From positions 1-23,800 of the IMG/VR virus record IMGVR_UViG_3300021963_000651: 23,800 bases of DNA, one strand, 5' to 3'. The notes under the pieces were generated by a model. It was not told the origin of the DNA, ran no database searches, and saw nothing but the letters and a program-made list of their open reading frames with translations. Position 1 is the first letter of the stretch; each line of letters begins with the position of its first letter. Shown in pieces: positions 1 through 23,150 of this stretch. The translations under genes and the position numbers were made by a program. The DNA is from a virus.

Positions 1-1455
1 TCTCAGTTCTTATCTGACGGTACAAGTTTTGAGTTATTATATGACGTAGATTTTGCTTCTAATTTTAATATTTCCAATAAAATGGACAGAAGTAAGACCC
101 CAATTTACACAAATGGGGTTTTAAGCGCATATAAGATCACAAAAACTGGTATTGTTGTGGCTGGTACAACTAGAATTTATACCCAAGTTATAAACAACAC
201 AAGACCATTTTATCAAATAACACTACCAGAAAATAATGTTTTATCGATTGAATCGGTAATACATAAAAACGGTACGAACTACCAAACATTACCAACCCAA
301 AGCGAGTTTTCGTCTGATATTAATAAATGGTATGAGATGCCATCTTTAGCGGAAAATTCAATTTTTGTTGATGATAAAACAGTTGCACCAGTTAATGGTG
401 TTTATAGTGGTAGTTATATGAATGTTGATAGAAAATTCATAAAAGAGTTCACACCAAACGGATTTTGTATTTTAACATTTGGTTCACAAACAAACCAAGG
501 GTTAGATATTTTAGATGATTTTGTAGATGGTGGTGGTTTTGACCTTAAAAGTTTCTTAAATAATGATAGTTTAGGTTGGGCACCATTAAATAACACAACA
601 CTGTATGTTAAATATAGAGTTGGTGGTGGTGCGGACACCAATGTCGGTGTTAATACAATTACAACAGTTGGTCAAGTTGGTATGAATCTTAACGGCCCTG
701 ACGCACAAACTAACGCTATTGTTCAAGGATCATTAACAGTTAAAAATATTACACCAGCTATTGGTGGTGGTGATGCCCCATCAATTGAAGCATTAAGAAA
801 TTATATCTCATACAATTTTGCGGCACAAAATAGAGCTGTGACCTTACAGGATTACAAAGCGGTTTTATTGGGTATGCCACCAAAATTTGGAACGCCAGCA
901 AAGGCGTCAGTTACTCAAGTCCAAAATAAAATTAATGTTGGTATTCTTTCAACAGACAGTGATGGTAATTTAAGTGATTTGGTATCAACTGTTGTACTAC
1001 AGAATGTTGCAAATTATTTATCCAGATATAGAATGATAAATGATTATGTGGTTGTTAAACCAGCATCAGTTATAAATGTTGGATTTGAGATATCAATACT
1101 AACTGAATCTGGTAACCAAGTAAATGCCATAGCATCAATTGCTCAGTTATTAAAGGATGAATTCGATCAAAATAAAATGCAATTAGGTCAAAGTTATTTA
1201 GTCGGTACGCTAATTAAAAAAATATCGCAAATTGATGGTGTTTTAAATATCAACTATATTAAGGCATTTAATAAAGTTGGTGGTGGTTATTCAACCAGTG
1301 CGTTAGATAGTACTATGATATTAGACATAAACACAAATGAAATTGATATAACATCTGGGGCAATAAAAGTTTCAGGTGATCAAATATTACAATTAAAATC
1401 ACCAGAAAAAGATATTGTTGTTATCCCAGTAACACAAAACACCTCAATAATATAA
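1..1455 (+). CDS. T4 gp6-like baseplate wedge protein (baseplate J family), 5' end missing
   Basis: The frame is open from base 1, so the gene starts left of the window and 484 C-terminal residues are visible. The ATG at 82 is internal: the upstream codons encode compatible protein (SDGTSFELLYDVDF). The best marker is at about 820-870, AAQNRAVTLQDYKAVL, which matches the conserved AxxRAVTxxDYKA-type segment of T4 gp6 and related baseplate J proteins. After it come alternating beta and helical stretches and a C-terminal part (LIKKISQIDGVLNI) typical of the family's ring-forming domain. In T4, gp6 dimers tie the wedges together around the tail hub and move during contraction. That role is inferred here from family membership. 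It implies a contractile tail. The next gene starts two bases after this stop, so they are almost certainly co-transcribed. Family call is fairly secure; exact gp6 equivalence is less so. Confidence 0.82.
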   Translation, partial: SQFLSDGTSFELLYDVDFASNFNISNKMDRSKTPIYTNGVLSAYKITKTGIVVAGTTRIYTQVINNTRPFYQITLPENNVLSIESVIHKNGTNYQTLPTQSEFSSDINKWYEMPSLAENSIFVDDKTVAPVNGVYSGSYMNVDRKFIKEFTPNGFCILTFGSQTNQGLDILDDFVDGGGFDLKSFLNNDSLGWAPLNNTTLYVKYRVGGGADTNVGVNTITTVGQVGMNLNGPDAQTNAIVQGSLTVKNITPAIGGGDAPSIEALRNYISYNFAAQNRAVTLQDYKAVLLGMPPKFGTPAKASVTQVQNKINVGILSTDSDGNLSDLVSTVVLQNVANYLSRYRMINDYVVVKPASVINVGFEISILTESGNQVNAIASIAQLLKDEFDQNKMQLGQSYLVGTLIKKISQIDGVLNINYIKAFNKVGGGYSTSALDSTMILDINTNEIDITSGAIKVSGDQILQLKSPEKDIVVIPVTQNTSII

Positions 1456-15700: not shown

Positions 15701-17337
15701 TTAACTGGGATAGTTATACAGCATTCGGATCGACTGCGGCCAGGATACCAAAAACGTTACCAATAACAAGTGGTGGTACACCATATATCACAACTGGAAC
15801 TAGTACTGGTTATACTTATCATGGTATAACGTATGGTAAAAAATACAATTCACTATTAGATTTAAATAAAGTTTATATCGAACAAAGTTACCAACACTTA
15901 GATACGTATGAAACAATTAACATTAATAGGTTATTTAGGGCTAAAAATACCAGTGGTGGTGCCACAGATTTAAGAAATTATAGTGGTGTTTATGCTTTGG
16001 GTACAACAGATACTGATGCATATAAAGATTATAGTGGAACACTTAGAACTGGGAAAACAAACATATATTTAAAACCTGGTTATCCAATTGATAACACTAG
16101 TAATTCATATTACGTGTATCCGTTTTTTAATGATTTATCTGGATCGGATCCGTTATTCGAGAGATTAGGTTTTGTTAGCGATAAAAACAACCCAACAAAT
16201 TGGGTTGTCGGAACCACAGGAACAACTTTCCAGGGCTCAAATTCAGACCCATTATATTTGGGTGCCAAATATGCGGTTAATAGAGGTGTACTTTATAAGT
16301 ATATGGGGGCTGGTAATTTAACATTAACAGCAACCACAACTGAACCATATAACGACTCGACCAATTGGGAAGAAAGAGATTTTTGTCTGGTTAATAATTT
16401 CACTTTTTATAAAGATAGAACCAAAGTTACCGTATTTGAATCTGATATTGAAAGTTTAACAACAGATGTTAAAAATAATTTGTATTTCTATAATAAAAAT
16501 TTAGCGTTAAAAAGCGGATTCACTAGCAGATCTTTCAGTGGCTCAACAATTAATAATAAATTAATGACAGCGCTAGATAAATTTTACGATATAACAGATG
16601 AAAACAGAATCACACCTGGTTCACATGGTATTGTTGATTTTAGAGCTAGTGGTAATGACATTATTTTAGATTATTACCCAGAAAAAGACCAAGTTGGATA
16701 CCCATTAACAGGTGAATTTATAGGTAGATTAAAATTAACAAACCCTTGCGGTCAAATGGCCACAACGTTTTTTGGTCTTTTATTTGATACCGATGTTACA
16801 TTACTGGATAGGGCTACAAATATAAGCTCAGCTCCAGTCGTTATCCCTGAAACTGCGGATATTTTACCATATTTAACCAGAATTATTGTTAATCAAAGCG
16901 CTAATGCTTCAGCTACTATAACGGTTAAATATATTAGCACTGAAACATCACAAATTGTTACAGATACTAATATTGTTAATAGTAAAGGTTTACTCGATAA
17001 AAAATATGATGTTATGCCTAACACCAATGTTGAAATTAGTGTTGAGTATGAAACTGGTAAATTCCAAACAAAATTTGGTTCAGCGTCAATAAATGGTAAC
17101 CCGATATTTGTTAATGATCAAATTAGTGATACAGTTACATTAAAAACATCACTAACAAAATCAACAAATACTAGTGGAAAAACAATTGAAAATAGGGGTC
17201 TTATTATTAGAGATATTACAGAAAATAAAACTGTTTATGTAAACTTAATTGGTATTGTAGAACAAACCTCACAAAACACTGAAACATTTGCAAAATATAA
17301 TATAGAGCAAATTAAAGTAAGTAACAAAAATTTATAA
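9757..17337 (+). CDS. Giant tail/baseplate protein (2526 aa) with gpI-like region and fibre-like extension
   Basis: At 7.6 kb this single uninterrupted gene is almost a third of the window. Residues 1-60 contain GCDGGYRTYL and KYVPCSSYVQYE, a paired-cysteine motif (C32, C50). Residues about 466-560 resemble P2 gpI-type tail proteins: IENIPDLLIKNFATMLGF, then EIWRRIMINAIYLFKSKGTR with the typical KGTR at 535-538, then SVEFILKLVGLP. In that family this region sits at the baseplate and carries fibres. The following ~1900 residues are Thr/Gly/Asn/Tyr-rich and beta-stranded, with aromatic modules that look carbohydrate-binding-like near 1127-1170, 1882-1946 and 2144-2203. The end (about 2370-2526) looks like one or two beta sandwiches. 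The start is fixed by the TAATG overlap with the preceding gene. Role inferred: a linker or arm joining baseplate to adhesion structures. The gpI assignment is by motif only, and no frameshift is visible. Confidence 0.72.
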   Translation: MANISFTTDNRIIRDLYDTADAAYEASRALGCDGGYRTYLINGETKYVPCSSYVQYESALRYKIVQGKIGAFGSDTFGDKLVGLQFANAKDEIAGDPFFTLGNFGINKSVPFSQNQIRQTQLNLNAASVQNDATKSFTVESIAQRNLTYFEGKSYVETLKKKVDSNITAKVLFDKRKLDNYVLFSSLKDRIKNVLLEIYNQYPAAIKLSAVSVLNPTIANYATYPLEKRSEFKVNLYGLTNPFGIEYTTSGSTLQDSETITKYRNFTKTFKDYVLHYDGVEYEILSATLPTNYNDDATGIKLSINGDPFSALVNVNGELNAGFYLKPKKAVYDEFFNNLSDLAAFLLNKDESGNYVSEFLFPKLSDDGKLFNVKETVSFPKYDEFNIDMFADPFDVYTTKLNDLADSYDSVKTNLIARFLTTDSLQEFDTDDRKANLVFQLYGKQFDEVKKYIDGITFMRNVSYNKIENIPDLLIKNFATMLGFKSYEIEDEDSLIESLFQLDDKNTLKTITPAELDIEIWRRIMINAIYLFKSKGTRKSVEFILKLVGLPNEVFDLNEFVYTVENPINPIDSLNKIYEGDSRYNPNKLFDIVPFDSKGNPTVPKTVVYQENGGYIFEDKNNVGLFDFGKKYINEYKKFNQVKLFTLDRTIDNVKSWVYTDKTKEYVADDLNGYTEYTVDSSDLVINSKELEVYLASNRVFDVTVYRQYYRNIGLVNSDLNINSALKFDVSSLSFNQFIKKSLDNFINPTNRKTIKTYPTLTKLYFDYLKTTSTPITSAVALDFLSKFDTSWVKLIEQFVPATSIVNAGKKVQNSIFLDNKFIYKHGKNEKVGWLGTDGSEFQQAALKPVYLGTTNVTENNGIIRETIVGDSPTFQISGRQGTKIIGTDPTVNEYFGVHYGMFEYCDTTEGRFYVWESGVDYGNDTVFGGNINKVLYTTTEQRYGVFVVYDGSVYRLNTRYLFQGTGAIPNIHTAGTGVALSNTLPPNRATVTNTAGITKKIWDHIHMDVDTRTITFGDTLSLGIRQSERSFYMNSIGRALAYAQLGIDFDCPPPKPHVCYYDFNGKTINLTTYVGSTYKTYLDETGALLSVKQPKFYGYSRDYSGEQPTGVTHGSYTQWVVPYKKRFAWELNKVYYTGEIIANIHPTHKSNLVYNSNVYLVTGTTTQNYIIGTGGTYPATAPLGTKLIATASATSVTTGASVNATTITGDTPGSMFGRYQDRTKTDPFMHVDTAFINKIKLNPNQTVHSVNLTKSLNLAHIFSGSTAATTYRVSDNIVNNELFISDSISVSFDGFYHIDKNKIGPFYILKDDNIFTHTLNESILLSPDTDNYISIQSLNENFETNGNDLNLINATNGYYLITKNCFLNFNFGLYFESVNNVLQTVEIKLVNNLGYVYDTQLFDFIGDDSGDLRQYLFQYSGFFNAGEKIYLVIKPINLGCTLTRYEKVNVDYTEPTTFDPMNDPRFRLLFNSGFNGKGYISEGFSIKPIYNLADFGTNSIQYKNDAVKYTDLNIPEINYTSDPSYLFNTLFYKYYSKFGQGQIVYDTTEFDKELGNDKIDFTITLRGKNENIAADALVNSNQASNSAVGVESSKVEFSVSLFDYYLGNTPEVTEFNNVSNTISIGKNPRNRKLGYTRNINYIPAYSFYNGGSIGTGTTQTTAILKSYDDGLLDYTKLNYSFDFVTQLKLYKRFYTDVPSGTNFSYHKLENQIYDSEIYKAVLDKAPLFNSKIINYELNDIVKVPVENYKVVVDTPTGKTVEIKTVYRLFVCVNDIHKDHCYKAQLTSTSPVVQGDIHPVYRPMGSRSCFVPIEKYNPANFTPWGYEEFNFGAKQNANLTDYIYKNIKPYDPESSDYKFGDVFIGSFEDVNSFFRYVYQKPLAYSATTTYNPGDFILRSETVSGVTYNRFYCARTTTTNHAPPTPQFNATGGTISGVGKTWNTYWMRIGGDLFDHRSLIGTPGTTPTGITISGITSFGTTWVNWDSYTAFGSTAARIPKTLPITSGGTPYITTGTSTGYTYHGITYGKKYNSLLDLNKVYIEQSYQHLDTYETININRLFRAKNTSGGATDLRNYSGVYALGTTDTDAYKDYSGTLRTGKTNIYLKPGYPIDNTSNSYYVYPFFNDLSGSDPLFERLGFVSDKNNPTNWVVGTTGTTFQGSNSDPLYLGAKYAVNRGVLYKYMGAGNLTLTATTTEPYNDSTNWEERDFCLVNNFTFYKDRTKVTVFESDIESLTTDVKNNLYFYNKNLALKSGFTSRSFSGSTINNKLMTALDKFYDITDENRITPGSHGIVDFRASGNDIILDYYPEKDQVGYPLTGEFIGRLKLTNPCGQMATTFFGLLFDTDVTLLDRATNISSAPVVIPETADILPYLTRIIVNQSANASATITVKYISTETSQIVTDTNIVNSKGLLDKKYDVMPNTNVEISVEYETGKFQTKFGSASINGNPIFVNDQISDTVTLKTSLTKSTNTSGKTIENRGLIIRDITENKTVYVNLIGIVEQTSQNTETFAKYNIEQIKVSNKNL

Positions 17338-17366
17338 AAATAAATCTATTTATGATAAAACAATAA
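17338..17366 (+). promoter_or_regulatory. Spacer with CTATTTAT motif and short palindrome; candidate promoter
   Basis: This 29-base AT-only-rich gap is one of just two real spacers in the window. It contains CTATTTATGATAAA (17346-17359); CTATTTAT followed by an ATNAA-type continuation recurs in the other spacer at 22863. ATAAAT and ATTTAT (17340-17345 and 17348-17353) form a short palindrome around CT. The next gene begins 14 bases after the motif. A late promoter or an mRNA processing/regulatory site is possible, but no experimentally defined consensus was matched. Confidence 0.35.
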
Positions 17367-20099
17367 ATGAGCTACATAATAAAGAAAAACGAACCATTGG
17401 TTAATTTAAAATTAACCGACACTGGTAGGAGGAATCTATCATCTGGTAGTCTAACTTTCACATCATTCAGCCTTGGTGATGGTGAGATGGATTATAGCTC
17501 TGATAATTTTACAAAAGTTAATATTTTAAGACCAGTTGATAAACAACACGATATACAATACCCCGTACCAAGTGAGGGTAGTAATTATAAATTACCAATA
17601 TCAATACTAACATCACTACCTAATGAAGTATACACCACAGCCAAAGAACGTGGATTTTTTATTTACGACACAACTGGTGGGACTATAAGTGTTGATAATA
17701 CTTTAACACTAATTGGTAATTTAAGCGGGTCAATTATTAGTGGTGCAACACAAAGCGGTAATAAAAACCAACTTGATTTAGTTTATACTAATGTCAGCTC
17801 AAAAAATACAGCATATAGAACAACTGTTAACACTGGTGATTATTTGTTTGTTAAATTTAATACTAGTGGTTATACAAATAACTACACAGCTTCAGCTATT
17901 AGTGAAATAGGTATCGACCCAACACCATTTTTGATGTACCAAATCACTGAAATTATTGATACAACTGGTGGAACAGTTTATGATGCGTTTGATTTAACTG
18001 GGTATACTACTGGTGTAACACTTAGTTTTGGATTAGACAGGATGCTACCTAATTTTAGTTTAGCTGATGTTGAAGCATATATTTACCCAGGCCCTCAAAC
18101 AATTAAAAATTATTATGATAATGAAACACCAATAGCGTACTGGAACGGTGGTTTATTGGATTTCACATCAAATTGTACTCTAGCTAATGATGATGTACCT
18201 GTTTGGAATATGAATATATTGACAATAGAAGAAATCATTGGTTTGGATAATACCTTATATAAGGGTAAGTACTTAAATAACGGTAGAGATTTTTGGGGTA
18301 CAGCGATAAACTATGATTATTTCTTAACAAATAGATTAGATAAAGTTGGTCTTATACATTACACAAACAATTCTGTTAGTAATTTTTATGCTGAGGGTTT
18401 TTATAGAAACACATTAACATTAAAGTTACCGTATTTAATGTGGCATAAAAAACAATTTGGTGGCCCAGCGTTGGCTGATGATATAGGGTACACCTTTGTT
18501 TGTGATACCGAACTAAAGTCGATGGGTACAAATAATAGTATATTTTATTATGATTTGGTTGATCAGGAGGTTGATAAGACTGTTGTTGGTAAAGTTTTGA
18601 TTGATGAAAAGATTATAATAATCGAACATCCAGAATTATTAACAGCTTTATCTTATAAATCAAATAGAAATTGGACATTACCAAAACCAAAACTAACGTT
18701 AATTCAACCAGGAGCCTGTCCAGGTAATAATACGTTAGGTGCATTACAACCAAACGAAGCGTTACACGTTACTTATTTATTTTTAGATACTGATGGTATT
18801 ACTGGTATTCATTGTGAAGATTATACAACAATATCAAACACAACTAGTGTGGCACAAGATGTTGTATTTGAATTCCCAAAGAGTAACACAGACCCAACAT
18901 ACAGCGAATTTGGGTATTTAAAAAACTATACGGATATTGAGGGTTATGGTTATAAAACAAACTCAATAATTTTATTGTGGCAAAAAACACAGATTAACAC
19001 ACTACCAGACCCAATCGATTGGAATAAATTAAATATCAATAGATTTATGGGCACCAATGGCTGTTTAAGTAATGTGACCAGTCTATGTGATGATTTTACA
19101 TTATACACGGAAACTGGATTTTACCCATCTAATTTTGATATATCTGTTGCTGATAGATATAGTTTAACTAAACAACCAATTGGTGAGGTTATTGTGTCAC
19201 TAGACGGTGGCATATTAACTGAGGCGTCATCTTTAGCTAATCTAGGTATTGATGGTGATTACTATGTTTATCCATTAAATGTTTTATCATCAACAAACAA
19301 CACACCAATAATTGAGTTTACCGCTGGATTAATTAATTCATCAACAAACAAATATGTTTTATTTCATTATCTAATTGGTACAACAAGTACATCAAAAACT
19401 ATTAGAAAAAATATAGATATACCATTAAGCGGTGTACCAACTGGTAATACCTATGTTGATGGTGTTTACATTGTCAATGGTAATATCGCACTTACATTGG
19501 ATTACCAACCAAATAATGACGTTGTTTGGCTATTTTATAATGGTCAATTAGTAAGTTCAAATAATTACGGTGTTTACCCAACTGGAACCACAGCTGAAAG
19601 ACGTGTTGAATTGACTTTCACTCCTTCAAATGGCTCAATGATATCTTTATTCTATTTAGATAATAGTGGGTTGGGTCAGGATCCAATAAACACAACGTTT
19701 ACATCAGCTAATATCGAAAAATTAAGAGTTAACATTGACAAATCTTTATTAGATATTAGTATTGATACGAAATATGATTTAAATGATTATATTCAATTAG
19801 CCGAATTAAATTCACCAACTGGACATACATTTGGTGACGAGACGTTCTTTTATGGTAATATAACAACGGATGTTAAAGCGACAATATATAAATCGTTGAT
19901 AACATGTAATGTACTACCAAATAAATTTATAAATTCAGCTAACCCAACATTTAACCCAAATCAGGATAAAACATGTTTTACCGAAATGGGGATTTACGAT
20001 AATAATGATGAGTTAGTCGCTATTGGTAAATTTAGCCAACCGTTAATTAGAAAATATAATTCGGATATGTTAATAATACAAGCAACAATTGATTTTTAA
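17367..20099 (+). CDS. Tail-collar-fibre-like protein, 910 aa, with a very large internal insertion
   Basis: The N-terminus carries LTDTGRR (16-22) and SLGDGEMDY (35-43), a pattern like the start of the phage tail-collar fibre N-terminal domain (LTxxG...GDG). The last 40 residues carry the matching end of such a domain: TEMGIYDNNDELVAIGKF (872-889), then a final strand (LIIQATIDF). In P2-type fibres these two halves lie roughly 100 residues apart; here about 830 residues separate them. The middle includes a conserved-looking stretch VGKVLIDEKIIII and YKSNRNWTLPKPK (about 410-440), and many Thr/Asn-rich strands. There is no signal peptide or catalytic motif. The start follows the first spacer, so this may open a new transcription unit. 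Role inferred: fibre attachment or decoration. Its stop directly abuts the next ATG. Confidence 0.7.
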   Translation: MSYIIKKNEPLVNLKLTDTGRRNLSSGSLTFTSFSLGDGEMDYSSDNFTKVNILRPVDKQHDIQYPVPSEGSNYKLPISILTSLPNEVYTTAKERGFFIYDTTGGTISVDNTLTLIGNLSGSIISGATQSGNKNQLDLVYTNVSSKNTAYRTTVNTGDYLFVKFNTSGYTNNYTASAISEIGIDPTPFLMYQITEIIDTTGGTVYDAFDLTGYTTGVTLSFGLDRMLPNFSLADVEAYIYPGPQTIKNYYDNETPIAYWNGGLLDFTSNCTLANDDVPVWNMNILTIEEIIGLDNTLYKGKYLNNGRDFWGTAINYDYFLTNRLDKVGLIHYTNNSVSNFYAEGFYRNTLTLKLPYLMWHKKQFGGPALADDIGYTFVCDTELKSMGTNNSIFYYDLVDQEVDKTVVGKVLIDEKIIIIEHPELLTALSYKSNRNWTLPKPKLTLIQPGACPGNNTLGALQPNEALHVTYLFLDTDGITGIHCEDYTTISNTTSVAQDVVFEFPKSNTDPTYSEFGYLKNYTDIEGYGYKTNSIILLWQKTQINTLPDPIDWNKLNINRFMGTNGCLSNVTSLCDDFTLYTETGFYPSNFDISVADRYSLTKQPIGEVIVSLDGGILTEASSLANLGIDGDYYVYPLNVLSSTNNTPIIEFTAGLINSSTNKYVLFHYLIGTTSTSKTIRKNIDIPLSGVPTGNTYVDGVYIVNGNIALTLDYQPNNDVVWLFYNGQLVSSNNYGVYPTGTTAERRVELTFTPSNGSMISLFYLDNSGLGQDPINTTFTSANIEKLRVNIDKSLLDISIDTKYDLNDYIQLAELNSPTGHTFGDETFFYGNITTDVKATIYKSLITCNVLPNKFINSANPTFNPNQDKTCFTEMGIYDNNDELVAIGKFSQPLIRKYNSDMLIIQATIDF

Positions 20100-21606: not shown

Positions 21607-22320
21607 ATGAATTATTATAACGACACTAATATATCCACACCAACATCTAACATAGCTCAAGCTGAGTTATCAACGGTTAATTTATATACAAAAAAATTAG
21701 CCATTCAACCAGTTTTTGATTTTAAAATATTTCGTGATGATTTCTATATTAATACACATGGTGTTAGTGTTACAGAATCGACAAAATCTTTTACAACACT
21801 AAATAATGGTTTATTTCATATTTTAAATAAGAATAACCAGCCCATGGTTTTTAATGGTATCACATTAACATCGGTTAGGTTTAGAAATGAAAGTGCGGTG
21901 CCAGCAAATACATTAAAACATGTATTTGTTAATACCACATACAATGCATCAAATACATACGCATACGATAATTACAATATATTATTTAGATCCAATGTTA
22001 TTGGTACATTATCAATTAGTAGAAGCGTAGAACACGCAAATGATCTAAATTTTATTTTAAACCCCTTCCAATCAATCCATTTTGGTGCAACATACACCGT
22101 TAAAAATGTTAATTTATTGGATGTCCAATATTATGGTGCGAGCAACATTAATAAAGATAAAAAAGTTGGTACATTAGATATGAGACTTACAATAAAATCA
22201 TTCACTGATCTCACCCTTACCACACCTATATATGACTCAATGACAATTACCGTTAATTTGGTCAATTCGGGTTATGTACCATCAGCATTATCAACTGGCT
22301 CAGGTCAAAACGTATCTTAA
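21607..22320 (+). CDS. Unrecognised fibre/tail structural protein, 237 aa
   Basis: Starts two bases after the previous stop; no Shine-Dalgarno sequence is visible. The protein is strand-rich and Asn/Thr/Val-rich. Recognisable stretches include FDFKIFRDDFYINTHGVSVTE near 37-57, NNGLFHILNKNNQPMVFNGI near 67-86, and TVKNVNLLDVQYYGASN near 162-178. The C-terminal VNSGYVPSALSTGSGQNVS looks flexible. Overall it resembles a small all-beta virion component, with no enzyme signature. Its 3' end contains an in-frame-shifted ATG (22274) that could be misread as the start of the next gene; see that entry. Family unknown; the tail or fibre role is inferred from neighbours only. Confidence 0.56.
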   Translation: MNYYNDTNISTPTSNIAQAELSTVNLYTKKLAIQPVFDFKIFRDDFYINTHGVSVTESTKSFTTLNNGLFHILNKNNQPMVFNGITLTSVRFRNESAVPANTLKHVFVNTTYNASNTYAYDNYNILFRSNVIGTLSISRSVEHANDLNFILNPFQSIHFGATYTVKNVNLLDVQYYGASNINKDKKVGTLDMRLTIKSFTDLTLTTPIYDSMTITVNLVNSGYVPSALSTGSGQNVS

Positions 22321-22321
22321 T

Positions 22322-22858
22322 ATGAAGTATATATATAATTTTAAAGATAAAACAGACATAATAGATAGTGGGATTCTTAGAAGAGATTCTTATGGTCTTT
22401 TTACATCAGAAATTATCGAATTAAATAAACAGTTTAATTATTCCGTATACCTATTCGGTTCATACATTGGGTATCTAATTAATGGGGACAAATACAATGA
22501 TATTGATTTTATTTTAACATCTGAAAAAATATTGGAACTCAATGATTTAACCCAATTTTTTAAATCATTTCATGACATATGTAAAAAATATAATGTTGGG
22601 TACAACCTAATGTACTCAACAGACAAAAATGAGGGTGATTTTGATTTGGATGTGTATAACGGATCGATATTTAACACTGGTTCATCTAAGGTTATTAGAT
22701 TATATAAGAGAATTGATGTTAATAATAAACTTGGATTTGAGTTTAAACCATTAATTGGTACAGAACTATATGAGGGTTTAATGGTACCAGTTAACCAAAA
22801 AATGGCTAAAAAAATGCAAATGGGTGTAAAATTTTATGCCCCAATAAAAATACAATAA
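22322..22858 (+). CDS. Nucleotidyltransferase-like protein (DNA polymerase beta superfamily motif), 178 aa
   Basis: Residues 42-65 show the core signature of the polymerase beta-type nucleotidyltransferase superfamily: a strand ending in FGS (45-47), a 12-residue gap, then DID in a second strand (NDIDFIL, 59-65). The general pattern is hG[GS]x(9-13)Dh[DE]h. A third acidic strand may be DFDLDV (106-111). In this superfamily the acidic residues bind metal and transfer a nucleotide to protein, RNA or a small molecule; the target here is unknown. Length is close to minimal nucleotidyltransferases, without a recognisable extra domain. I chose the ATG at 22322, one base after the previous stop; an in-frame ATG at 22274 would add 16 residues overlapping the upstream gene and looks less likely. 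A non-structural enzyme-like gene amid tail genes is unusual. Catalytic function is inferred from motif only. Confidence 0.6.
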   Translation: MKYIYNFKDKTDIIDSGILRRDSYGLFTSEIIELNKQFNYSVYLFGSYIGYLINGDKYNDIDFILTSEKILELNDLTQFFKSFHDICKKYNVGYNLMYSTDKNEGDFDLDVYNGSIFNTGSSKVIRLYKRIDVNNKLGFEFKPLIGTELYEGLMVPVNQKMAKKMQMGVKFYAPIKIQ

Positions 22859-22907
22859 AAGACTATTTATTATTAAGGATAAATAACTATAATTAAAAAA
22901 AAATAAA
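22859..22907 (+). promoter_or_regulatory. Spacer with CTATTTAT motif and inverted repeat; candidate late promoter or regulatory hairpin
   Basis: This 49-base spacer is the longest non-coding stretch in the window. It contains CTATTTAT (22863-22870), shared with the spacer at 17346. TATTTAT (22864-22870) and ATAAATA (22879-22885) are a perfect 7-base inverted repeat around an 8-base loop. GATAAATA (22878-22885) differs by one base from the T4 late promoter box TATAAATA, which may be coincidence in such AT-rich DNA. An A-rich run leads into the next ATG, as is common before Bacteroidota genes. It could be a promoter or a weak hairpin. It lacks the G+C stem and T-run of an intrinsic terminator. 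Confidence 0.38.
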
Positions 22908-23150
22908 ATGGGTTTAGTAAACACGGGTACAACGGTCGAAATGAAGGTATATTTGACCGAACTAGGTAGAAGACGATTATTGGAGCAGGGTTTTGTTCCA
23001 TCTAGATTTTCATTATCGGATGATGATGTCAACTATAATGCGGATTTATACGTAACACAGAGAGTTGCGGATTTAACTGGTGATTATAATGATAATGTAT
23101 ATTCATTGTCTAAAAACGTAACAATAACAAGCCAAATCATACAAAAATAA
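22908..23150 (+). CDS. Small stand-alone collar-domain-like protein, 80 aa
   Basis: Residues 16-22 (LTELGRR) and 35-43 (SLSDDDVNY) match the N-terminus of the 910-residue protein at identical positions (LTDTGRR at 16-22, SLGDGEMDY at 35-43), and that of the 195-residue protein nearly so. Unlike those, nothing large follows: the chain ends after a short VYSLSKNVTITSQIIQK strand region. It therefore looks like the minimal version of the shared domain. It follows the 49-base spacer and is probably the first gene of its transcript. The A-rich leader and lack of Shine-Dalgarno fit the other genes. Small size lowers certainty, but the motif match argues that it is real. Role inferred: a cap, adaptor or attachment piece for a fibre. 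Confidence 0.66.
   Translation: MGLVNTGTTVEMKVYLTELGRRRLLEQGFVPSRFSLSDDDVNYNADLYVTQRVADLTGDYNDNVYSLSKNVTITSQIIQK

Follow-up and report, generated by a model that had tools for sequence, protein, structure and literature searches.

A gene resembling nucleotidyltransferases (NTases) among the tail genes of a phage raises the question of whether its product is such an enzyme and, if so, what it would act on in that setting. The gene lies at positions 22322–22858, on the forward strand, of a 23.8 kb stretch from an IMG/VR virus record (the window), in which the genes are co-directional. The start codon of its 178-aa open reading frame is supported by an equivalent M[KR]Y that opens every relative. 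At the beginning of the window is the gene for a Baseplate J-like protein (1–1455, forward strand, its 5′ part outside the window; PF04865, E 2.5e-7), which identifies the gene cluster as a tail/baseplate module and bears out the tail-gene context given by an initial sequence-only reading. That reading also placed both neighbours within one or two bases. This holds upstream: a conserved 237-aa tail-region gene (21607–22320, forward strand) ends 1 base ahead of the NTase gene. It does not hold downstream: 49 bases, with a conserved element in them, separate the NTase gene from a conserved 80-aa gene (22908–23150, forward strand; 64–81% identity in aligned relatives).

The signature first noticed in the product, F45-G46-S47-x12-D60-I61-D62, is read directly from the sequence (codons at 22454–22507, forward strand), with G[GS] after strand 1 and DxD on strand 2. 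The strict form of the motif, hG[GS]-x9-13-DhDh, has a single occurrence in the 14 window proteins. Residue shuffling predicts it by chance 0.0055 times in a protein of this composition and 0.088 times in a window, so that by itself it is no more than suggestive. Single-sequence searches of IMG/VR and of phages with the 178-aa protein found no relatives; these were reached through a neighbouring gene (L001 and L002), and alignments then brought in further carriers. Besides the window, the carriers are L001, L021, L023, L024, L026, L027 and L045, with five distinct protein sequences (L026, L027 and L045 being the same) that are 37–44% identical to the window protein, in a family of 178–186 aa. 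All five keep G[GS]-x12/13-DID. Across the aligned sequences the position after strand 1 is GS or GG, and DID, on predicted strand 61–66, is invariant. Pairs of closer relatives that are unsaturated at synonymous sites give a dN/dS of 0.04–0.2, which indicates a gene maintained under purifying selection. Together, the conservation in five relatives, the dN/dS values and the predicted fold confirm that the motif goes beyond chance.

The AlphaFold2 model of the window protein, built from an 8-row alignment, has a pLDDT of 77 and a pTM of 0.79. It contains helix 21–35, strand 41–46, helix 47–54, strand 61–66, helix 73–89 and strand 94–99, and this helix-strand-helix-strand-helix-strand arrangement is the core described for NTases (PMC11646218). 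When the model was compared to the PDB with Foldseek, AAD(9), CCA-adding enzymes, HI0073 and MNT ranked first, with a best E of 0.008 and zero matches below 0.001. The Pol-beta-type fold expected from the motif is therefore upheld, as its core is present in the model and the top PDB matches are NTases. The top viral match is a full-length fold match to A0A516ML51 (E 2e-7, TM 0.67). A second model, made on the L024 protein, is of low confidence (pLDDT 55); its core order is unchanged, and its matches to MNT, HI0073 and Pol beta lend weak support only.

Profile searches gave a similar picture. Weak matches were found in different members to SidM_N (2.8e-5), Polbeta (0.003), NTP_transf_2 (0.005) and DUF6932 (0.005), the first three being restricted to some members of the family. 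The best SidM_N (PF20879) match is that of L023, at 24 bits against a curated cut-off of 27, and this profile is not listed for the window copy. L024 scores 17.6 bits against NTP_transf_2 (PF01909; cut-off 21) and 18.1 against Polbeta (PF18765; cut-off 26.9), for which the window copy reaches 14 bits. The NTase-family profiles anticipated for this protein thus do appear, but none at its curated cut-off; searches of Pfam, NCBIfam and PHROGs gave no model above cut-off or convincing, and PADLOC gave nothing useful for the family. It could be argued that the protein is not an NTase at all and carries a chance motif on an unrelated fold, given the 0.088 occurrences expected per window, the PDB matches staying above E 0.001 and the low confidence of the second model. 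We consider this very improbable, since the motif is conserved across 37–44% identity and correctly placed in the predicted core, and both profile and fold matches converge on NTases. The agreement of these individually modest lines makes for a strong assignment, and the product almost certainly belongs to the Pol-beta-like NTase superfamily, within which it is an undescribed family.

Whether the window copy could be a working enzyme depends on the third catalytic carboxylate. DFDLDV (residues 106–110; 22637–22654, forward strand) had been put forward as a third acidic strand, but the relatives do not have it, and the model puts it in a loop of low confidence, away from both the sheet and the core; we no longer consider it a candidate. 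Position 95 (22604–22606, forward strand), on strand 94–99, the following core strand, fits the third carboxylate better in the predicted structure, with the placement of residues 47, 60, 62 and 95 being judged from secondary structure and the alignment. Four of the six distinct sequences have Asp here (L021, L023, L024 and L026), as does the same alignment column in phrog_36119, an independent phage NTase-like family. The window copy and L001, its nearest relative, have Asn (codon AAC in the window). From their sequences, the relatives with Asp95 look catalytically canonical, and the window copy, lacking the third carboxylate of a canonical NTase, is not classed as such; it may be weakened, slower, changed in its metal site, inactive, or a binding protein. 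RelA/SpoT enzymes are without one of the acidic residues and Tam41 has only one of the three, and both are still enzymes (PMC11646218), so Asn95 is no proof of inactivity, yet inactivity is a real possibility.

This leads to the main rival explanation, in which the protein is a non-catalytic NTase-fold derivative serving as a nucleotide-binding or chaperone-like assembly factor for the adjacent tail proteins. The Asn shared by the window and L001, the location among tail genes and a C-terminal F..PIKI strand that is conserved as strongly as the signature all speak for it. However, GS or GG and DID are kept in all members, Asp occupies the third position in the remaining four sequences, the RelA/SpoT and Tam41 precedents apply here as well, and most relatives assemble their tails without the gene. 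We see this explanation as unlikely, though it deserves to be kept in mind.

Comparison of homologous loci shows what kind of gene this is. The 237-aa and 80-aa genes flank the NTase gene in all carriers. The same flanking genes are found without it in L002, L028 and most other members of the group, and in L033 (14832–15461), likewise in L034, a gene for an FkbM methyltransferase (PF05050, 5.9e-19) occupies exactly the same slot. The tight spacing that had been taken to argue against insertion does not carry that argument, as the gene is an optional insertion absent from between the same flanks in most relatives. The related claim that it was not inserted recently does stand: copies sharing just 37–44% identity with that of the window point to an old acquisition. 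A tree of the 910-aa neighbour lacks resolution in its backbone and is compatible with one single acquisition of the NTase gene.

The downstream edge of the slot is a conserved AT-rich intergenic element (ACTATTTAT...AATAACT...; 22859–22907, forward strand). It precedes the 80-aa gene in the window and 16 other loci, with similar motifs in all 17 loci compared, whether cargo is present or absent. We infer that the element is probably the promoter of the 80-aa gene, a reading under which cargo genes would come last, at the 3′ end, in the transcript before it. In more distant members of the group, modifying-enzyme genes occupy other places than the NTase slot: SET-domain and sulfotransferase genes lie upstream of tail-region genes in L081 (152–1365), and L048 has a glycosyltransferase gene near tail genes. 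These fit with a tail region in which optional modifying enzymes are acquired. A family of 324–330 aa (L120, 2994–3974) is also found near tail genes in 10 related loci; it has no Pfam match and by eye looks like a glycosyltransferase.

The related records are 141–321 kb long and encode a T4-type major capsid protein (PF07068) and a terminase. The nearest annotated capsid proteins are ~33–34% identical and belong to an uncultured 484-kb phage and Microcystis phage Mel-JY01. We describe the carriers as an uncultured T4-like jumbo-phage group. Among the sequences found, the NTase-fold family is confined to one phage clade. Two pattern-based scans of 84,980 bacterial and archaeal genomes detected no homologue, nor did searches of annotated phages or a sequence search of the PDB; a family HMM run over 143 collected sequences found no divergent member, and no near-identical contig turned up in an exact-match scan with part of the upstream gene. 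The comparison of loci shows that the NTase-fold gene is lineage-specific accessory (moron-like) cargo of this T4-like jumbo-phage group.

Several known systems resemble the protein to some degree. Minimal NTases of the MNT type (HI0073, MntA) share the G[GS]...DxD core and small size and are among the best fold matches, whereas the window protein has extra N-terminal strands, a C-terminal beta extension, Asn95 and no adjacent HEPN gene. An MNT-type antitoxin or an aminoglycoside-type small-molecule NTase acquired by the phage could be suspected from AAD(9), MNT and HI0073 being among the best fold matches and from very weak MntA or Lnu matches in one member (about 0.04). However, the neighbouring 237-aa and 80-aa genes match no Pfam HEPN model, as a type VII toxin-antitoxin partner would, and in none of the loci examined does a HEPN-like gene lie next to it. 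Curated cut-offs are not reached either, and it is not obvious what purpose modifying drugs would serve in a tail operon. We regard this origin as highly improbable.

RNA repair is another role to consider, as the Pol-beta-type NTases that jumbo phages commonly carry are RlaP-like and CCA-adding enzymes (PMC7824862), members of the same superfamily, and the fold matches of our model include the latter. In the largest carrier, a 298.8-kb record, the family gene is at 22 kb, and RlaP is encoded apart (255 kb), together with an RNA ligase (248 kb); with both functions encoded more than 200 kb away, a repair role is disfavoured. The RlaP profile (PF10127) gives no match to the NTase-fold family, no tRNA gene is present in the window and the neighbours are tail genes. 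We therefore regard an RlaP-like or CCA-adding function as very unlikely.

phrog_36119 is a second NTase-like family of this phage group; two related records have it close to structural genes (L155, 1345–2085, forward strand; L156, 1063–1815, reverse strand). It resembles the window protein in its GS-x-DID motif and in a third Asp aligning with position 95, but its proteins are 246–250 aa long and 18–23% identical, and it is widespread (Lak, Maribacter, Synechococcus and Caulobacter phages), unlike the NTase-fold family with its one clade. In one Synechococcus record phrog_36119 is annotated as an aminoglycoside nucleotidyltransferase.

The last of these systems is SidM_N, the AMPylase domain of DrrA, in which a G-S-x11-D-x-D motif is accompanied by a third Asp (PMC7815794). 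It is the best sequence-profile match in several relatives and its motif is comparable, but the profile has 285 positions against the 178–186 aa of our family, which has no GEF or lipid-binding domains. This weak resemblance bears on the idea that the protein is packaged in the virion and injected, in the manner of T4 Alt, to modify a host protein when infection begins, though through transfer of a nucleoside monophosphate (NMP). Host RNA polymerase is a target of protein-modifying enzymes in T4-like phages (PMC7824862), which sets a precedent, and the gene is encoded among tail genes. Adjacency to tail genes does not demonstrate packaging, though; no packaging signal was identified, and the gene is optional. 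An injected effector seems rather unlikely to us.

The reading we prefer, at a probability of roughly 0.5, is a lineage-specific, late-expressed accessory NTase that passes NMP either to a protein or to a surface acceptor, where we infer the acceptor, the activity and the timing. The gene would be the last of a late transcript, upstream of the promoter-like element. Its product would bind NTP-Mg at the DID strand and, by a reaction such as protein AMPylation, pass NMP on to a macromolecule or a surface acceptor. The phage might gain a conditional advantage from this through altered fibre or host-surface chemistry or through superinfection exclusion. The roles suggested at the outset, namely modification of a fibre or surface molecule, an injected effector or a moron gene, could each still hold. 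Of these, the moron-type reading is the one favoured by the comparative data, which leave the targets undistinguished. A more specific version, in which an enzyme coexpressed with the tail genes nucleotidylates tail-fibre proteins or the host-surface receptor, as a counterpart to the FkbM methyltransferase in the same slot of other phages, is doubtful, and that methyltransferase is found there in one lineage only.

With these results, a previously undescribed NTase family joins the cargo of an uncultured T4-like jumbo-phage group. The results also define a precise slot among tail genes, before a promoter-like element, that holds an NTase in one lineage and a methyltransferase in another. If the protein is active, it would allow a direct test of phage nucleotidylation of virion or host-surface molecules, for which the natural Asp/Asn split at position 95 provides built-in test pairs.

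The surrounding tail genes showed some features of their own. Three window proteins, with starts at 17367, 20100 and 22908, have a similar N-terminal stretch (M...LTxxGR...FSLxDxxxxY), and by eye they may be paralogous, perhaps sharing a common attachment domain. In L056 (12804–14015), a single open reading frame of 403 aa is a fusion of the counterparts of two window genes, those of 195 aa and 305 aa. The L002 gene at 16166–17893 encodes 575 aa, compared to 246 aa for the same gene in L001, and by eye is apparently interrupted by an intein.
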